The notes under the pieces were generated by a model, which was given only the letters and a program-made list of their open reading frames with translations, did no database searches and was not told the DNA's origin. From an uncultured Bacteroidales bacterium (GTDB taxonomy: Bacteria > Bacteroidota > Bacteroidia > Bacteroidales > F082): a stretch of DNA of 50,352 nucleotides. The translations under genes were made by a program, and so were the position numbers. The DNA is taken from positions 1 through 50,352 of the forward strand of contig ONFO01000029.1 in assembly GCA_900317155.1 (NCBI GenBank), in the 5' to 3' direction. The first letter of the stretch is position 1, and every line of letters begins with the position of its first letter. Below, piece by piece: positions 14,754 to 21,981 of the stretch.

Positions 14754-14826
14754 GCTTCCGTAGCTCAGTTGGTAGAGCACCTGACTCTTAATCAGGGTGT
14801 CCAGGGTTCGACCCCCTGCGGGAGTA
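14754..14826 (+). tRNA. tRNA-Lys (CTT)
   Basis: A full cloverleaf is visible: acceptor GCTTCCG with CGGGAGT (two G-U pairs), D-arm GCTCAGTTGGTAGAGC, anticodon stem CCTGA/TCAGG with loop CTCTTAA (anticodon CUU, lysine), and T-arm CAGGG TTCGACC CCCTG. The 3' CCA is not encoded. Confidence 0.93.
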
Positions 14827-14834
14827 CAAGAAAT

Positions 14835-17560: not shown

Positions 17561-17568
17561 TATTTTTG
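17561..17568 (+). promoter_or_regulatory. -7 promoter element for the peptide-modification operon
   Basis: TATTTTTG, 15 nt upstream of the ATG at 17584. It is back-to-back with the lnt promoter. Confidence 0.6.
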
Positions 17569-17583
17569 CAAAAAATTTGTCCG

Positions 17584-18453
17584 ATGAGAAAAGAATATGA
17601 GGTAGCAGGCCATAGGTTTGCCGTGGTGATGCCTGATAATGAGGTGGCCTGGAATAGTATGGGATCATACAAGCCCTTTGAAGTAGAAGGGGTTTCCGAC
17701 TGTATTTTTACTGCAGAATTAATCGAGGCCATGCCCGACATTACTGAGAAAAAGCGTGTCACCGTCAGTTGTGCTGGCTCCGATCAGGCGCGTATTGAGT
17801 TGTATGAGTATAAGGATGAATGGTTGATGGAGTTGGCTCCTACGATGAATGCGCCTGTCAGGGCATATCTGATTACGGATAAGGCATTCAAAAATGCGCG
17901 ATTCCGTATGTTGGGCTCCATTTGGTTCTCTCTCAACACTGTGATGATGCTGATGTTTGCATTTGCGACGGCTCGCAAAAACACGCTCCTCATGCATGCC
18001 TCAGTGACTGTGAAGGACGGGAAAGGTTATCTTTTCTTGGGCAAAAGCGGCACTGGAAAAAGTACCCACAGCCAGTTGTGGATTAATAATATAGAAGGTT
18101 GTGAATTGTTGAACGACGACAACCCCGTGCTTCGTGTCGGTGATGATGGAGTGGTTCGCGTGTATGGATCTCCTTGGAGCGGCAAGACGCCGTGTTACCG
18201 TAACCTCAATGTTCCGGTTGGTGCCATCGTCTCGCTGCGTCAGGCGAAAGTGAACAAGATTTACCGTCAGTCCATGCCCGAATCCTATGCTTCGGTGTAT
18301 GTTTCTTTCTCTGGCTATCGTTTCATCAAGGAAATGGCTGAAGGACTGCACATCACCAACGCTATGGTGGTAAGTACCGTTCCTTGCTATATGCTTGATT
18401 GCCTGCCGAATGCCGAGGCCGCATTCTTGTGTTACCAAACGGTTTCGAAGTAA
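17584..18453 (+). CDS. HPr-kinase-like (HprK-related) protein
   Basis: The 289-residue protein has a Walker A loop GKSGTGKST (153-161) and a downstream acidic motif LLNDDNP (175-181), as in the P-loop kinase domain of HPr kinase/PEPCK-like enzymes. GSPWSGKTP lies further on. The N-terminal ~130 residues are unlike true HprK and are typical of HprK-related proteins found beside PqqD-like genes. In lasso-peptide clusters such as paeninodin, relatives phosphorylate the precursor peptide. Here it is first in an operon with an S26B peptidase, a PqqD-like protein and a nucleotidyltransferase, so a role in modifying a peptide is inferred. The start avoids a TTG inside the promoter. The stop overlaps the next ATG (TAATG). 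Confidence 0.82.
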   Translation: MRKEYEVAGHRFAVVMPDNEVAWNSMGSYKPFEVEGVSDCIFTAELIEAMPDITEKKRVTVSCAGSDQARIELYEYKDEWLMELAPTMNAPVRAYLITDKAFKNARFRMLGSIWFSLNTVMMLMFAFATARKNTLLMHASVTVKDGKGYLFLGKSGTGKSTHSQLWINNIEGCELLNDDNPVLRVGDDGVVRVYGSPWSGKTPCYRNLNVPVGAIVSLRQAKVNKIYRQSMPESYASVYVSFSGYRFIKEMAEGLHITNAMVVSTVPCYMLDCLPNAEAAFLCYQTVSK

Positions 18454-18893
18454 TGGAAAGAACTATCTCTTATGATGATTCAAATCTGACCCAAGTGCCA
18501 CGTCTGCTGGCAGAAGGCAAGGTGGTCATCTTGAAGAGAGTGAAGGGGATTAGTATGTTGCCTTTTATTCGTGGTGGCGTTGATAGCGTCAAATTGCGCA
18601 AGGTGGAGGGACTGAAAGTGGGTAACATTGTTTTGGCCATTTTTAATGGTAGGCCTCTCGTGCATAGGGTCATTGCCATTGAAGGAAACAGGGTCACGCT
18701 GATGGGTGACGGAAACCTGGAGGGTACAGAACAAGGCGACATCTCGGAGGTATTGGGCATTGTTGATGAAATCATCACCCCATCAGGACGCTGCCGCAAA
18801 CCAGGTAACGGCCGGCTATGGTACAGACTGCTTCCTGTCAGGAAATACTTGCTTAAGGTATATAAAAAGTGGAATAAGTTATTTGTCAAATAA
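18453..18893 (+). CDS. S24/S26-type peptidase with Ser-His dyad
   Basis: The 146-residue protein has the serine motif GISMLPFI (S34) and, ~37 residues later, LVHRVIAIEG (H71) followed by LMGDGN. A histidine instead of the lysine of ordinary signal peptidase I is the hallmark of the S26B (SipW/ER-type) branch. There is no clear N-terminal membrane helix, unlike housekeeping LepB; the C-terminus is basic (LLKVYKKWNKLFVK). Being inside this operon, its likely job is leader removal from, or processing of, the modified peptide. That is inference. Confidence 0.75.
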   Translation: MERTISYDDSNLTQVPRLLAEGKVVILKRVKGISMLPFIRGGVDSVKLRKVEGLKVGNIVLAIFNGRPLVHRVIAIEGNRVTLMGDGNLEGTEQGDISEVLGIVDEIITPSGRCRKPGNGRLWYRLLPVRKYLLKVYKKWNKLFVK

Positions 18894-18910
18894 TTAAAAA
18901 ACAAAATGAG

Positions 18911-19180
18911 ATGAAAACAAAGAAAGGTTATACCCTGCGTCCCTTAGGACAAGAATATATTTTGGTCGCTGAAGGCCTTGATGTGGCTGATGCAACCCGT
19001 ATGATTTCGATGAATGCCACTGCAGCTTTCCTTTGGGAGGAAGTGGAAGGCCGTGATTTTGATGAACAAACTCTGGTTGATTTATTAATTGACAATTGGA
19101 ATGTTTCGCCCGAAACTGCCAAAAAGGATATCGCTGCCCTGCTCAAGTCGTGGAGGAAGGCTGAAGTCATTGTGGATTAA
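18911..19180 (+). CDS. PqqD-family peptide-binding protein (RRE)
   Basis: The 89-residue protein fits the PqqD fold: N-terminal beta strands (YTLRPLGQEYILVAEG), then 'MISMNATAAFLWEEVEG' and a winged-helix half ending in LLKSWRKAEVIVD. The 'N-x-T-A-x-x-L-W' pattern is diagnostic. PqqD-like proteins are RiPP recognition elements that bind the leader of a precursor peptide and present it to modifying enzymes. The size equals stand-alone lasso-peptide B1 proteins. Confidence 0.88.
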   Translation: MKTKKGYTLRPLGQEYILVAEGLDVADATRMISMNATAAFLWEEVEGRDFDEQTLVDLLIDNWNVSPETAKKDIAALLKSWRKAEVIVD

Positions 19181-19220
19181 TTAACAAGGATAATTAATTA
19201 ATAAGGTGGAGGCAAAACGG

Positions 19221-20360
19221 ATGACGAACACCGAAGTTCAATACTTTGCACTGCTGCAGGCAGCCATTTGGGACCGCCCTGTAGCCTATGAGGGTGCAAT
19301 AAATTGGCCTGAAGTCATGCAACTCGCCCAGCATCATGCCACAATCATTTTGTTGTGTGATGTAGCCTCCAGGATGAATGATAGCCGCCAACCTGATATG
19401 GAGATGCTGGAAAAGATGAAGCAATATATGCGATCCAACCTCTTTTTCCATATCAAGTTGAGACAGACCATGCTACAGGCTGTAGCAATGTTACGCAAGC
19501 AGGGCATCGAGCCTGTGTTGCTCAAAGGCTTTAGTTTGGCCGCTCTCTATCCCAATCCTGCCCTCAGACAGTTCGGCGACATTGACCTCTTTGTCGGATT
19601 GGAAAAGTTTCATGAGGCCTGCGCTGTGTTGCGTGCCATGCCTGGTTCCTACAACTGGGGTACGATTCTTGATTCGGGAAGGCACTTCAATATCGAGTTC
19701 GGTGAGTATTCCCTTGAAATCCATCGCGTCAGTTCCGAAGTTCTTGAGGCTGAAGAAAATGCCGTTTATATGGAATTGGAGCGCCAAGGTTTGGTGATTA
19801 ATGCCGAAGAGGTTGAACTTGAAGGTGCCCACCTTCGTGTCCCTTCAAAGGACTTCATGGCGTTTTTCACCTTCTATCATGCTTGGCATCATTTCTTGAC
19901 CACAGGAGTGGGCTGGCGACAACTGTGCGACATAGCCATGGTGCTTCACATCTATCATGGCCAAATTAATGAAGAACAGCTCCGTCGTGGCCTCGAAGGC
20001 ATGCACCTGATGAAGCCTTGGCAGGCTTTCGGAGTTTTGCTGGTGCAGTATCTTGGCTTGCCTGAATCGGAGATGCCTTTCTATACGGCAAAACTGCATC
20101 GCACCCCGCAAAAACTGTATAGTTTTATTATGCGTGAGGGCAATTTTGGACGCCACGAGGATTTCAAAAAGAAACGCCCCAAGAATTACCTGCTGCGTAA
20201 GGCCCATGCTTTTATCTGCATTCTTGTTGATTTCTTTAGGATGTACAAGGTCTTTCCCCAAGTGGCTTTTAGGGAATTGGCTAGTTCCCTGAAGCAAGGT
20301 TTTACAAAAGTTAACCATGATATTATAGGTCATGGAAAAAAAATCTGCAAAAAAAAGTAA
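19221..20360 (+). CDS. nucleotidyltransferase family protein (NTP_transf_5-like)
   Basis: The 379-residue protein has the motif pair 'EPVLLKGFSL' (LKG about 101-103) and 'RQFGDIDLFV' (GDIDL about 119-123), which define the Rv-type nucleotidyltransferase family often encoded beside PqqD-like proteins, HprK-like kinases and lasso-peptide enzymes. The acidic residues of GDIDL would bind the metal. The C-terminal half is helical and ends in basic residues. The ATG at 19221 is preferred over an in-frame GTG at 19206, because a purine-rich GGTGGAGG stretch precedes the ATG at a suitable distance. Last gene of the operon; the target (peptide or carrier) is unknown. Confidence 0.8.
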   Translation: MTNTEVQYFALLQAAIWDRPVAYEGAINWPEVMQLAQHHATIILLCDVASRMNDSRQPDMEMLEKMKQYMRSNLFFHIKLRQTMLQAVAMLRKQGIEPVLLKGFSLAALYPNPALRQFGDIDLFVGLEKFHEACAVLRAMPGSYNWGTILDSGRHFNIEFGEYSLEIHRVSSEVLEAEENAVYMELERQGLVINAEEVELEGAHLRVPSKDFMAFFTFYHAWHHFLTTGVGWRQLCDIAMVLHIYHGQINEEQLRRGLEGMHLMKPWQAFGVLLVQYLGLPESEMPFYTAKLHRTPQKLYSFIMREGNFGRHEDFKKKRPKNYLLRKAHAFICILVDFFRMYKVFPQVAFRELASSLKQGFTKVNHDIIGHGKKICKKK

Positions 20361-20389
20361 TTTTTTTCTTGTATATCAAAAATAAGTGC

Positions 20390-20397
20390 TATTTTTG
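20390..20397 (+). promoter_or_regulatory. -7 promoter element for the small peptide gene
   Basis: TATTTTTG with TTG at 20369-20371 (18 nt spacing). It gives the peptide its own transcript with a leader of about 80 nt, independent of the enzyme operon. Confidence 0.65.
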
Positions 20398-20483
20398 CAG
20401 CGTGAAATCGGATAAAAAAACAACGACAACACATGATAAATTCATCTAAATAACAAATTGTTTCACTAAAATCTAATTAAAAA

Positions 20484-20633
20484 ATGAAAAAAATGAATGT
20501 TTACATGGCTCCTGAAGCCGAAGTGATCGAATTGAACGTGTTCGCCACTGTTCTCAGCAACTCAAACACTGGTGAGATTGGCGGTGACGATCCTACGATT
20601 GACCCCACAGGTTTTAACGGCGAAAAGAAATAA
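20484..20633 (+). CDS. 49-residue candidate precursor peptide
   Basis: The ATG at 20484 and TAA at 20631-20633 enclose a 49-residue peptide. Its first part (residues 1-24) reads MKKMNVYMAPEAEVIELNVF and then ATVL, which is the form of many short Bacteroidetes leader peptides. It includes a Y-x-x-P motif (residues 7-10), the pattern bound by PqqD-like proteins in lasso-peptide leaders. A Gly-Gly (33-34) separates this from an acidic C-terminus, DDPTIDPTGFNGEKK. There is no signal peptide, cysteine or tryptophan. It lies directly after the HprK/S26B/PqqD/nucleotidyltransferase operon and has its own promoter, as expected for an abundant substrate. Substrate status is inference; no macrolactam synthetase or radical SAM maturase gene is present. 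Confidence 0.7.
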   Translation: MKKMNVYMAPEAEVIELNVFATVLSNSNTGEIGGDDPTIDPTGFNGEKK

Positions 20634-20692
20634 TCTTGCCTGACTAACCTGGTAAAAAACTGAATTCAGTACTAATTAAAAAGAATCGAAAA

Positions 20693-21724
20693 ATGAAAAA
20701 AGTTATGAGAATTATGGGCCTGGCTTGCATGGCTGGCCTTCTTGCATGCACCACTTCTTGCAAGAAAAAAGAAAATTCCACTTCTTTGAATCTCACGGTT
20801 CCTGCAATGTCTGTTGTCTCTGTAGACGGTGAAAGAGCTTACATTGATGGCGACTTGCATTTCCAATGGAACGAAGAGGACTACATCTATGTGTACAACC
20901 TCTCCGACACCTATGAAGAGTCAGTTGTGAACTTGTTTGAAAATTCATCGGGTGCTGGTACTACCGCTACCTTCCATGGCAGCGAAATGGGTTCTCGCAA
21001 GTTCTATGGCTACCGTTATTTCTATCCCACCACGATGGTGAGCGGCAATCCTGAAGAGTTGGCCGATGAAAACCGTCAGACTTTCACGGTTGACCCTATT
21101 CAACAATTTGAAGGCTATGAGGCCACAGGTCATCCTGCCAGTGCTGTTGATGTCGACCAAATGGCTATGGCCATCAATACTGATGACCTGCAGGCTTATG
21201 CCCAACTGAAGCACATCTTCGGTATTGCTGACATTCGTCTGAAGACTGCTTCTGGCAAGGACACCAAGGTTCAGAAGATTACCATCACCGACAATGCTTT
21301 CGCTCTGTGGGGCACTGCTTCGCTGAGACTCCACGCTGTTGACATGGATAAGCTCAATGCTCTGATGACTGCCTATAAGACTCAGACTGGCTACGAAGCT
21401 TTGTGGGCTAGCTACGTTATCGGTGAACTCGGTTGGATGCCTGGTGATAACACCGGTAACAACAGCATCGAGATGGACTGCACCATGGGTGATGCCGCTG
21501 GTGTTACTCTTCCTGCTGGTTTCCAACAGTATCAGGACTTCATGTTCCTGCTCCGTCCTCTGGCTCTGAGCGAAGGTTTCACTGTTGATGTTGAATACAC
21601 CACTGGTGGCGTTGCAAAGACCAAGCAAATCACTTCTTGGGGTGCTAATAATCCCAGCAAGCGTTTGTTCGTCAGCGAGCCCGGCGTTATCAAGATGTTC
21701 ACCTGCACGACTTCTCTGCAGTAA
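20693..21724 (+). CDS. lipoprotein of unknown function
   Basis: The 343-residue protein begins with a lipoprotein signal (LLAC at 16-19; a second candidate cysteine at 23) followed by KKK. The rest is beta-rich and resembles fimbrillin-like or carbohydrate-adhesion lipoproteins of Bacteroidales, but no specific family is recognised. It starts 59 nt after the small peptide gene with no terminator or -7 element between, so both are probably one transcript. It could be a surface partner or carrier of the peptide, or unrelated. A strong terminator follows. Confidence 0.75.
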   Translation: MKKVMRIMGLACMAGLLACTTSCKKKENSTSLNLTVPAMSVVSVDGERAYIDGDLHFQWNEEDYIYVYNLSDTYEESVVNLFENSSGAGTTATFHGSEMGSRKFYGYRYFYPTTMVSGNPEELADENRQTFTVDPIQQFEGYEATGHPASAVDVDQMAMAINTDDLQAYAQLKHIFGIADIRLKTASGKDTKVQKITITDNAFALWGTASLRLHAVDMDKLNALMTAYKTQTGYEALWASYVIGELGWMPGDNTGNNSIEMDCTMGDAAGVTLPAGFQQYQDFMFLLRPLALSEGFTVDVEYTTGGVAKTKQITSWGANNPSKRLFVSEPGVIKMFTCTTSLQ

Positions 21725-21743
21725 TTCATTCTTGAAAAATGAA

Positions 21744-21775
21744 AAAAAGCACCTCCCATCGGGGGTGCTTTTTTT
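21744..21775 (+). terminator. intrinsic terminator after lipoprotein
   Basis: GCACCTCC (21749-21756) pairs with GGGGGTGC (21761-21768), followed by seven or more T. It closes the peptide-lipoprotein transcript. Confidence 0.85.
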
Positions 21776-21899: not shown

Positions 21900-21908
21900 A
21901 CGATTTCG

Positions 21909-21981
<73 letters not shown>

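Follow-up and report, generated by a model that had tools for sequence, protein, structure and literature searches.

A candidate pathway in Bacteroidota akin to that of linear polyphosphorylated peptides, with dispersed precursors beside surface-protein genes

Contig ONFO01000029.1 of an uncultured Bacteroidales bacterium (family F082, assembly GCA_900317155.1) was analyzed over a stretch of 50,352 nucleotides, here called the window. The subject of this report is a six-gene locus on its plus strand, which encodes a small precursor-like peptide and a set of putative modifying enzymes and which we read as the probable Bacteroidota equivalent of the pathway that makes linear polyphosphorylated peptides (LPP). 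All six genes run rightward and lie where a first-pass annotation, made from the sequence alone, had placed them. The first gene encodes a kinase of 289 aa (17584..18453), for which an HprK/PEPCK fold was assigned from a structure model. It is followed by genes for an S24/S26-superfamily peptidase of 146 aa, likely the leader peptidase (18453..18893), a PqqD-like protein of 89 aa, classified as a discrete RRE (recognition element of ribosomally synthesized and post-translationally modified peptides, RiPPs; 18911..19180), and an NTP_transf_5 protein of 384 aa when read from GTG (19206..20360). The fifth gene encodes the peptide of 49 aa (20484..20633), with a predicted leader of about residues 1–24 and a core of about residues 25–49, and the sixth encodes its putative partner, a fast-evolving fimbrillin-like lipoprotein (20693..21724). 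A terminator-like hairpin is located 3' of the lipoprotein gene (21742..21775); the stretch contains 7 such sites compared with 4.6 expected. A −7 promoter box of the operon, TATTTTTG, lies in front of the kinase gene (17561..17568), and TAT[CT]TTTG is kept there in 18/18 loci. The peptide gene had been predicted to have a −7 promoter of its own. This was borne out by a second box, TATTTTTG (20390..20397), as TA[TC]TTTTG is kept 73–94 nt 5' of the peptide start in all 18 loci of the close group described below.

Of 149 genomes drawn from the family, 23 had the kinase, the genome of the window included. From 22 family genomes, 23 further kinase loci were read, 17 of which form a close group with the window (L050–L066), whereas 6 are divergent (L067–L072). 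The 49-aa open reading frame (ORF) is judged to be more than a chance frame because intact positional orthologues of 37–47 aa were found in 17/17 close-group loci. With the window counted, the peptide lies between the NTP_transf_5 gene and the lipoprotein gene in 18/18 loci, its frame is open in every one of them, and the Y-x-x-P leader motif pointed out in the first-pass annotation is kept throughout. The ratio of nonsynonymous to synonymous polymorphism (pN/pS) in the leader was 0.31 (12 codons, 18 sequences), indicating constraint at the protein level. Among the divergent family loci, L069 has the peptide immediately before the kinase, and no peptide was found nearby in the other five, one of which (L068) is cut by the contig end. 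Genome G120 carries two kinase loci, L069 and L072. At one of them a YxxP peptide immediately precedes the kinase; the second locus consists of PqqD, kinase and S26 genes, with no peptide seen nearby. A second YxxP peptide is present in the genome of the window (G000:C5:386-505, L261; profile E = 9.3e-4) and adjoins the gene of a 1247-aa BspA-type leucine-rich repeat (LRR) protein. Thirty members of the peptide family were scanned against Pfam and NCBIfam, and none matched convincingly.

The distribution of peptide and kinase over genomes was determined with a profile of 30 peptides (A7), where E<=0.01 was counted as presence. In the family sample of 149 genomes, 21 had kinase and peptide, 2 the peptide only, 2 the kinase only and 124 neither (p = 3e-21). 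The order sample of 295 genomes contained 18 with the peptide and 38 with the kinase; 15 had both, 3 the peptide only, 23 the kinase only and 254 neither (p = 1.7e-12). Counted by taxonomic family label, with 120 families taken from the highest label, 12 of the 14 peptide families were among the 26 kinase families (12 with both, 2 with the peptide only, 14 with the kinase only, 92 with neither; p = 6e-8). Since the genomes are related to one another, the p values serve as guides.

The gene order around the kinase was followed beyond the family. Named genomes were scanned with a kinase profile, which yielded at least 581 relatives; the best 80 loci were kept, several of them cut by contig ends. 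Nearly all of these best 80 loci belong to Bacteroidales, Bacteroidia or a group within. In the stretch around the kinase, they contain an S26-like gene in 71/80, a PqqD-like gene in 70/80, an ATP-binding cassette (ABC) exporter in 51/80 and an NTP_transf_5 gene in 16/80. A candidate match to a narrow peptide profile at E<=0.1 was obtained in 14/80, and part of these matches were checked. Thirty order-level kinase loci, including the one in the window, were read with 1.5-kb flanks. Five of the 30 show the order PqqD-peptide-kinase-S26 (L204, L207, L209, L212 and L214), and in two further loci, L191 and L208, the peptide is directly 5' of the kinase. The peptides of L208 and L214 were recognized by motif, not by profile. 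In a record of the gut species Phocaeicola massiliensis (OY725995), a single stretch holds, in this order, peptide, lipoprotein, PqqD, NTP_transf_5, ABC, kinase and S26 genes. A plasmid collection contained three distant kinases and no peptide detectable by tblastn; of two regions that were read, the one from Phocaeicola has a peptide and none was seen in the one from Prevotella. When 296 genomes drawn at the level of the phylum were scanned, 10 matched the kinase profile. Two kinase relatives outside the class (L332 and L334) are accompanied by PqqD-like and S26-like genes. Four other relatives from this draw lie in frames of ∼660–680 aa, suggesting fused proteins. In L288, L291, L294 and L331, genes for polysaccharide export, chain length or glycosyltransferases are located next to the kinase operon.

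The anatomy of the peptide was analyzed in a set of 96 sequences aligned on the Tyr residue. A YxxP motif was required for entry into the set, and dispersed peptides with a profile E>0.05 as well as the truncated L269 peptide were excluded. Leader positions +6 to +10 from Tyr are mostly E-V-[IV]-E-[ILV]. A block of the type [ILVFM][ACMLTSGV]x[SGA] starts at +16 in 72/96 peptides, at +17 in 28 and at +15 in 13, compared with <=6 of 96 at any other position between +8 and +29. Ser is present at +18..+20 in 80/96 peptides, compared with 4–24 for the non-overlapping three-residue windows; in the window peptide, Ser25 and Ser27 are at +18 and +20 from Tyr7. The cores extend 10–42 residues beyond +20, are net negative in 88/96 cases and contain Cys in 2. 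Apart from Ser, no core residue is strongly conserved, and the family illustrates with particular clarity how a hypervariable core can follow a conserved leader. The [ILF][AMLC]xS block may represent a signal-peptidase (−3,−1) cleavage site, although cleavage in the published LPP lies two residues ahead of the phospho-Ser. A Gly-Gly ahead of the acidic tail, which had also been listed as a feature of the peptide, did not hold up. GG occurs in that column in 4/19 aligned peptides and lies within the variable core; a leader of the double-glycine type, with the corresponding processing, was therefore rejected.

The enzymes encoded in the operon were compared with known families and solved structures. 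In the Pfam scan the kinase matched PEPCK_ATP at 3.6e-5 and the peptidase matched Peptidase_S24 at 1.8e-4, both below the curated cut-offs. A structure model of the kinase computed from 35 sequences reached a predicted local distance difference test (pLDDT) score of 94.7. Against solved structures, the best PEPCK match had 7.6e-7 and the best HprK/P match 9.6e-5, with low template modelling (TM) scores of 0.24–0.48 (by query). His138, Lys159, Asp178 and Asp179 were unchanged in alignments of 11 and 35 rows. Lasso-peptide kinases carry a His-Lys-Asp-Asp motif (PMC9266682), with which we infer that these four residues can be equated. In the peptidase, Ser34, His71, Asp86 and Glu93 are invariant in 13/13 alignment rows, and the nearest solved relatives are LexA (0.0026) and SEC11A (0.0069). 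The protein is likely a signal peptidase I (SpI)-like Ser-His leader peptidase, a candidate in which Asp86 or Glu93 would be the third catalytic member. The PqqD-like protein matches PF05402 with E = 1.7e-14, and its Asn35 and Asp73 are invariant in 11 rows. Its best solved relative is the lasso RRE TfuB1 (6jx3, E = 0.0035), which has the Asn and the Asp in common. Via the TfuB1 alignment, both residues also seem to match the Asn and Asp by which LppB of the LPP pathway holds the leader Pro and Tyr (PMC13381572). The NTP_transf_5 protein was assigned with a Pfam E value of 2e-40 and has an invariant G124-D125-x-D127; several of its relatives begin near the ATG at 19221 instead of the GTG.

The LPP pathway was experimentally shown in Bacillota for the lpp cluster of Paenibacillus alginolyticus (Nat Commun 2026, PMC13381572). 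According to this report, the RRE LppB binds a YxxP leader, and LppK sets up to four phosphates on core Ser3, 18 residues after Tyr by the numbering of the paper. The signal-peptidase-like LppS (Ser29, His68, Asp93) removes the leader with the help of the RRE. As the phospho-Ser is the third core residue, cleavage takes place two residues before it. The exporter is the MsbA-like LppD, and deletion of lppN, encoding the NTP transferase, caused no detectable change. The leader consensus is YxxPxVLxHQxIxFETxxS. The authors describe the family as restricted to Bacillota and its biological role as unknown (PMC13381572).

Like the LPP cluster, the locus in the window combines a YxxP leader and a variable C terminus with a discrete RRE, an HprK-like kinase, a Ser peptidase and an NTP transferase, and no cyclase was seen. 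The ABC exporter in 51 of the best 80 relatives parallels LppD, and the phospho-Ser at +18 in LPP parallels the Ser at +18..+20 in the Bacteroidota peptides. Some clusters are flanked by polysaccharide genes, both in Bacilli and among the Bacteroidota relatives. Since every enzyme in the window has an LPP counterpart and the exporter is the missing part, the locus was read as LPP-like, and we consider it likely that it is the Bacteroidota counterpart of the pathway. The first-pass annotation had proposed the peptide as the substrate of a PqqD/HprK-like kinase pathway, a view supported by the co-occurrence of both, the PqqD-peptide-kinase order and the leader anatomy. By analogy with LppA, LppK, LppB and LppS, the PqqD-like RRE would bind the Tyr-x-x-Pro leader and hand the 49-residue precursor to the HprK-like kinase, which would phosphorylate a Ser near the core start (in the window peptide, Ser25 or Ser27). 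Leader removal at about residues 22–24, carried out by the S26-like Ser-His peptidase, would be the next step. As a guess, the NTP_transf_5 protein probably attaches a further group to the phosphate, the nucleotidylation suggested in the first-pass annotation being no more than a candidate for this step, and the acidic phosphorylated core of ∼25 residues would be exported from the cell and work at the surface with the neighboring fimbrillin-like lipoprotein.

There are also differences from LPP. The phylum is another one, and the Bacteroidota leader lacks HQxIxFET; neither HQ nor FET of the consensus was seen in the 96 aligned peptides. Bacteroidota precursors are often located outside the operon, with up to 19 per genome, and are mostly paired with an exported protein, and no exporter was found for the lineage of the window. 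The chemistry is of a known kind, published for Bacillota (PMC13381572), whereas the Bacteroidota branch, the dispersed multi-copy precursors, their coupling to surface proteins and the joint divergence of core and lipoprotein appear to be new. In the titles and passages of the literature searched, no LPP-like system of Bacteroidota was described, and in the accessible text of a paper on RiPP mining in Bacteroidales (PMC10352776), PqqD occurs once, in the reference list.

Several observations weigh against the assignment to an LPP-like pathway. No ABC exporter is present in the window locus, and the best match in the same genome is only 28% identical. Ser is missing at +18..+20 in 16/96 peptides, and since nine of these belong to the ortholog group of the window, the site may have moved there. 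Profile A7 is partly circular, as it contains peptides found beside kinases, family-sample rows and seven order-sample rows; in two less circular counts, 14/14 genomes matched by the window peptide as sole query (E<=0.1) have the kinase, as do 8/11 peptide genomes of the order sample when the narrower profile A1 is applied (p = 5e-6). Five genomes (G098, G148, G438, G385 and G313) gave a peptide profile match and no kinase with two kinase profiles. In G098, two peptides are located on a 4-kb contig that breaks off inside an NTP_transf_5 homologue (L310, G098:C69). Completeness is 65% for G385 and 89% for G438, and no YxxP ORF corresponding to the G313 match was seen in L299. G148 is a plain exception. 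Two family genomes with the kinase, G093 (peptide E = 0.025) and G117, have no peptide at E<=0.01. In the order sample, the same applies to 23 genomes, including 5 with a kinase match of E<1e-25; some of the 23 contain an in-operon peptide overlooked by the profile (L207–L209, L212, L214). Small ORFs with a bare YxxP motif were not enriched around the kinases of the 80 loci (46 compared with 32–104 for seven control motifs), for which reason the evidence was restricted to profile searches and gene position. As a separate observation, the two peptides of L310 each follow a larger ORF and have nearly the same leader but different cores.

Copies of the precursor, many of them away from the operon, were counted per genome at E<=0.5. 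Genome G258 had 19 peptide profile matches, all 19 of which were seen as ORFs, and other genomes had 12, 6, 6 and 5. The first-pass annotation had raised the question whether the peptide is always beside the operon and had regarded distant homologues without the pathway as contrary evidence. Such contrary evidence was obtained in part: constant adjacency was not found, as many copies are dispersed, yet most of the genomes concerned carry the kinase elsewhere. For 31 of the 57 peptides examined, a gene on the same strand lies <=250 nt downstream. By a crude rule for calling signal sequences, 24/31 of these downstream neighbors (19 of lipoprotein type) have one, compared with 30/211 other genes in those stretches; for upstream neighbors the count was 16/33. 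A scan of 52 partners identified BspA LRR, InlB-like repeats, Big_2, cohesin, dockerin, fn3, BACON, fimbrillin and C10 peptidase, each with 1–5 members. The neighbor of the L285 peptide is a cytoplasmic-type ATPase, unlike the surface partners. In the genus of the window, the peptide lies immediately 5' of a member of the window-type lipoprotein family in 15/18 loci, a count over selected dispersed profile matches from which G098 and G148 are excluded. The repeated unit is peptide plus surface protein, which would require the enzymes to work in trans. That most of the examined precursors adjoin an exported protein is a strong hint where LPP-like peptides act and names pairs that can be tested. 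A possible function is thereby also indicated for this class of small Bacteroidales ORFs, the scanned members of which lack a convincing Pfam or NCBIfam match.

A model of the window lipoprotein from 17 sequences had a pLDDT of 76.5, and its best structural match was 3t2l (E = 1.7e-8, TM 0.41). The predicted fold thus resembles the fimbrillin-like cell adhesion lipoproteins of Bacteroides (3t2l, 3ufi, 4h40). In contrast to these, the window lipoprotein is too distant in sequence for Pfam, with 1/17 family members matching Mfa_like_1 at 0.014, and it is paired with an LPP-like precursor.

Divergence of core and lipoprotein was assessed in four close pairs of loci, a small number for the following comparisons. 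Within each pair, the leader and the 120 nt preceding it are 96–100% identical, whereas the core has been rewritten and, in 2/4 pairs, also differs in length by a net in-frame change. The lipoproteins are 60–90% identical compared with mostly 90–100% for the remaining genes. In the pair L059/L060, the divergent block extends from the leader/core border to the end of the lipoprotein gene, and the synonymous divergence (dS) of the lipoprotein gene is 1.53 compared with 0.04–0.40 for the other genes. Both findings point to an exchange of the core-lipoprotein segment. In L050/L051, the NTP_transf_5 protein (77%) and the S26-like peptidase (87%) are both less identical than the lipoprotein (90%), which speaks against the lipoprotein being special. 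One tentative idea, which we hold to be possible and not probable, is that each dispersed precursor has its own adhesin or fimbrillin-like lipoprotein, that one operon serves all of them, and that core and partner co-diversify as a matched pair, as a ligand and receptor or as a kin-recognition mark on a surface fiber. If true, the LPP-like pathway of Bacteroidota would be a general surface-specificity device.

Variability of the core could also reflect relaxed constraint, with the leader and the phospho-Ser mattering and the tail drifting. This explanation is compatible with an LPP-like pathway, and we give it a limited chance, similar to that of matched co-diversification. It agrees with the lack of strongly conserved core residues past the Ser, with the non-coding spacer of L065/L066, which diverged too (34/50 aligned), and with the NTP_transf_5 protein of L050/L051 having diverged more than the lipoprotein. 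Drift fits less well with the non-coding spacer of L050/L051, which is 51/51 identical next to a rewritten core with a two-codon length change, and with the frames open in 18/18.

Modification of another carrier by the operon was considered as a further explanation. The peptide would then serve the neighboring surface protein as a small regulator or chaperone-like partner, and co-occurrence would reflect shared habitat or ancestry. The many peptide copies far from the operon, mostly adjoining the gene of an exported protein, would fit. However, 5/30 order-level loci have the peptide placed between PqqD and kinase, the linkage of 21/2/2/124 holds within one family, and the conserved part is the leader, not the core. 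The peptide is also found either before or after the exported protein, and YxxP is known as the motif that discrete RREs bind (PMC10368454, PMC13381572). We regard this explanation as unlikely.

A bacteriocin with immunity, where the core is a toxin and the co-varying lipoprotein protects the producer, appears slightly less likely still. The limits of the divergent block in L059/L060 and the high dS of its lipoprotein gene would be expected for such a pair. This reading was lowered because partners elsewhere matched adhesin-like families (BspA LRR, Big_2, cohesin, dockerin, fn3 and InlB-like repeats, each in 2–5 of 52 scanned), unlike immunity proteins. Moreover, membrane-active peptides are usually basic, whereas 88/96 cores are net negative, and up to 19 copies per genome occur.

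A lasso peptide cluster with a lost or distant cyclase is very improbable: the locus has its RRE, YxxP leader, kinase and NTP protein in common with phosphorylated lasso clusters (PMC9266682, PMC10368454, PMC7533575) and one peptide of 30 weakly matches NCBIfam lasso_cyano (0.004), but PF13471, the B2 transglutaminase-like leader peptidase, is absent from the genome of the window, Asn synthetase and PF13471 are not among the 25 commonest of 105 families in 91 neighboring ORFs (the genome itself was not searched for the synthetase), and the cores, judged by eye, have no fixed Gly1 and acidic ring residue. The proposal of a linear peptide is supported by the absence of PF13471 and by the linearity of the related Bacillota LPP (PMC13381572). 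The phosphorylated lasso systems paeninodin, pseudomycoidin and Bsf share with the window a His-Lys-Asp-Asp HprK-like kinase, a PqqD-like B1, a nucleotidyltransferase N and a Y/WxxP leader (PMC9266682, PMC10368454). They differ in that the window genome has a Ser-His peptidase instead of the B2 protease and that no cyclase is among those 25 commonest neighbor families. The phosphosite of paeninodin is the C-terminal Ser (PMC9266682, PMC10368454), unlike the Ser near the core start proposed for the window peptide.

Other known systems were compared as well. No PADLOC match indicating anti-phage defense was obtained for five proteins, and the SynChlorMet cassette was rejected with scores below the cut-offs (ScmC 25.1 compared with 125 bits, ScmD 14.5 compared with 100 bits). 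In the exosortase-associated HprK_rel_A system, an HprK-related kinase has PqqD-like and nucleotidyltransferase neighbors. The window kinase differs from it, scoring 24.8 bits for TIGR04352 compared with a cut-off of 200, and exosortase PF09721 is absent from the genome of the window. The region as a whole is bracketed by a tRNA-Lys gene at 14754–14827 (+) and a tRNA-Phe gene at 21908–21981 (−).

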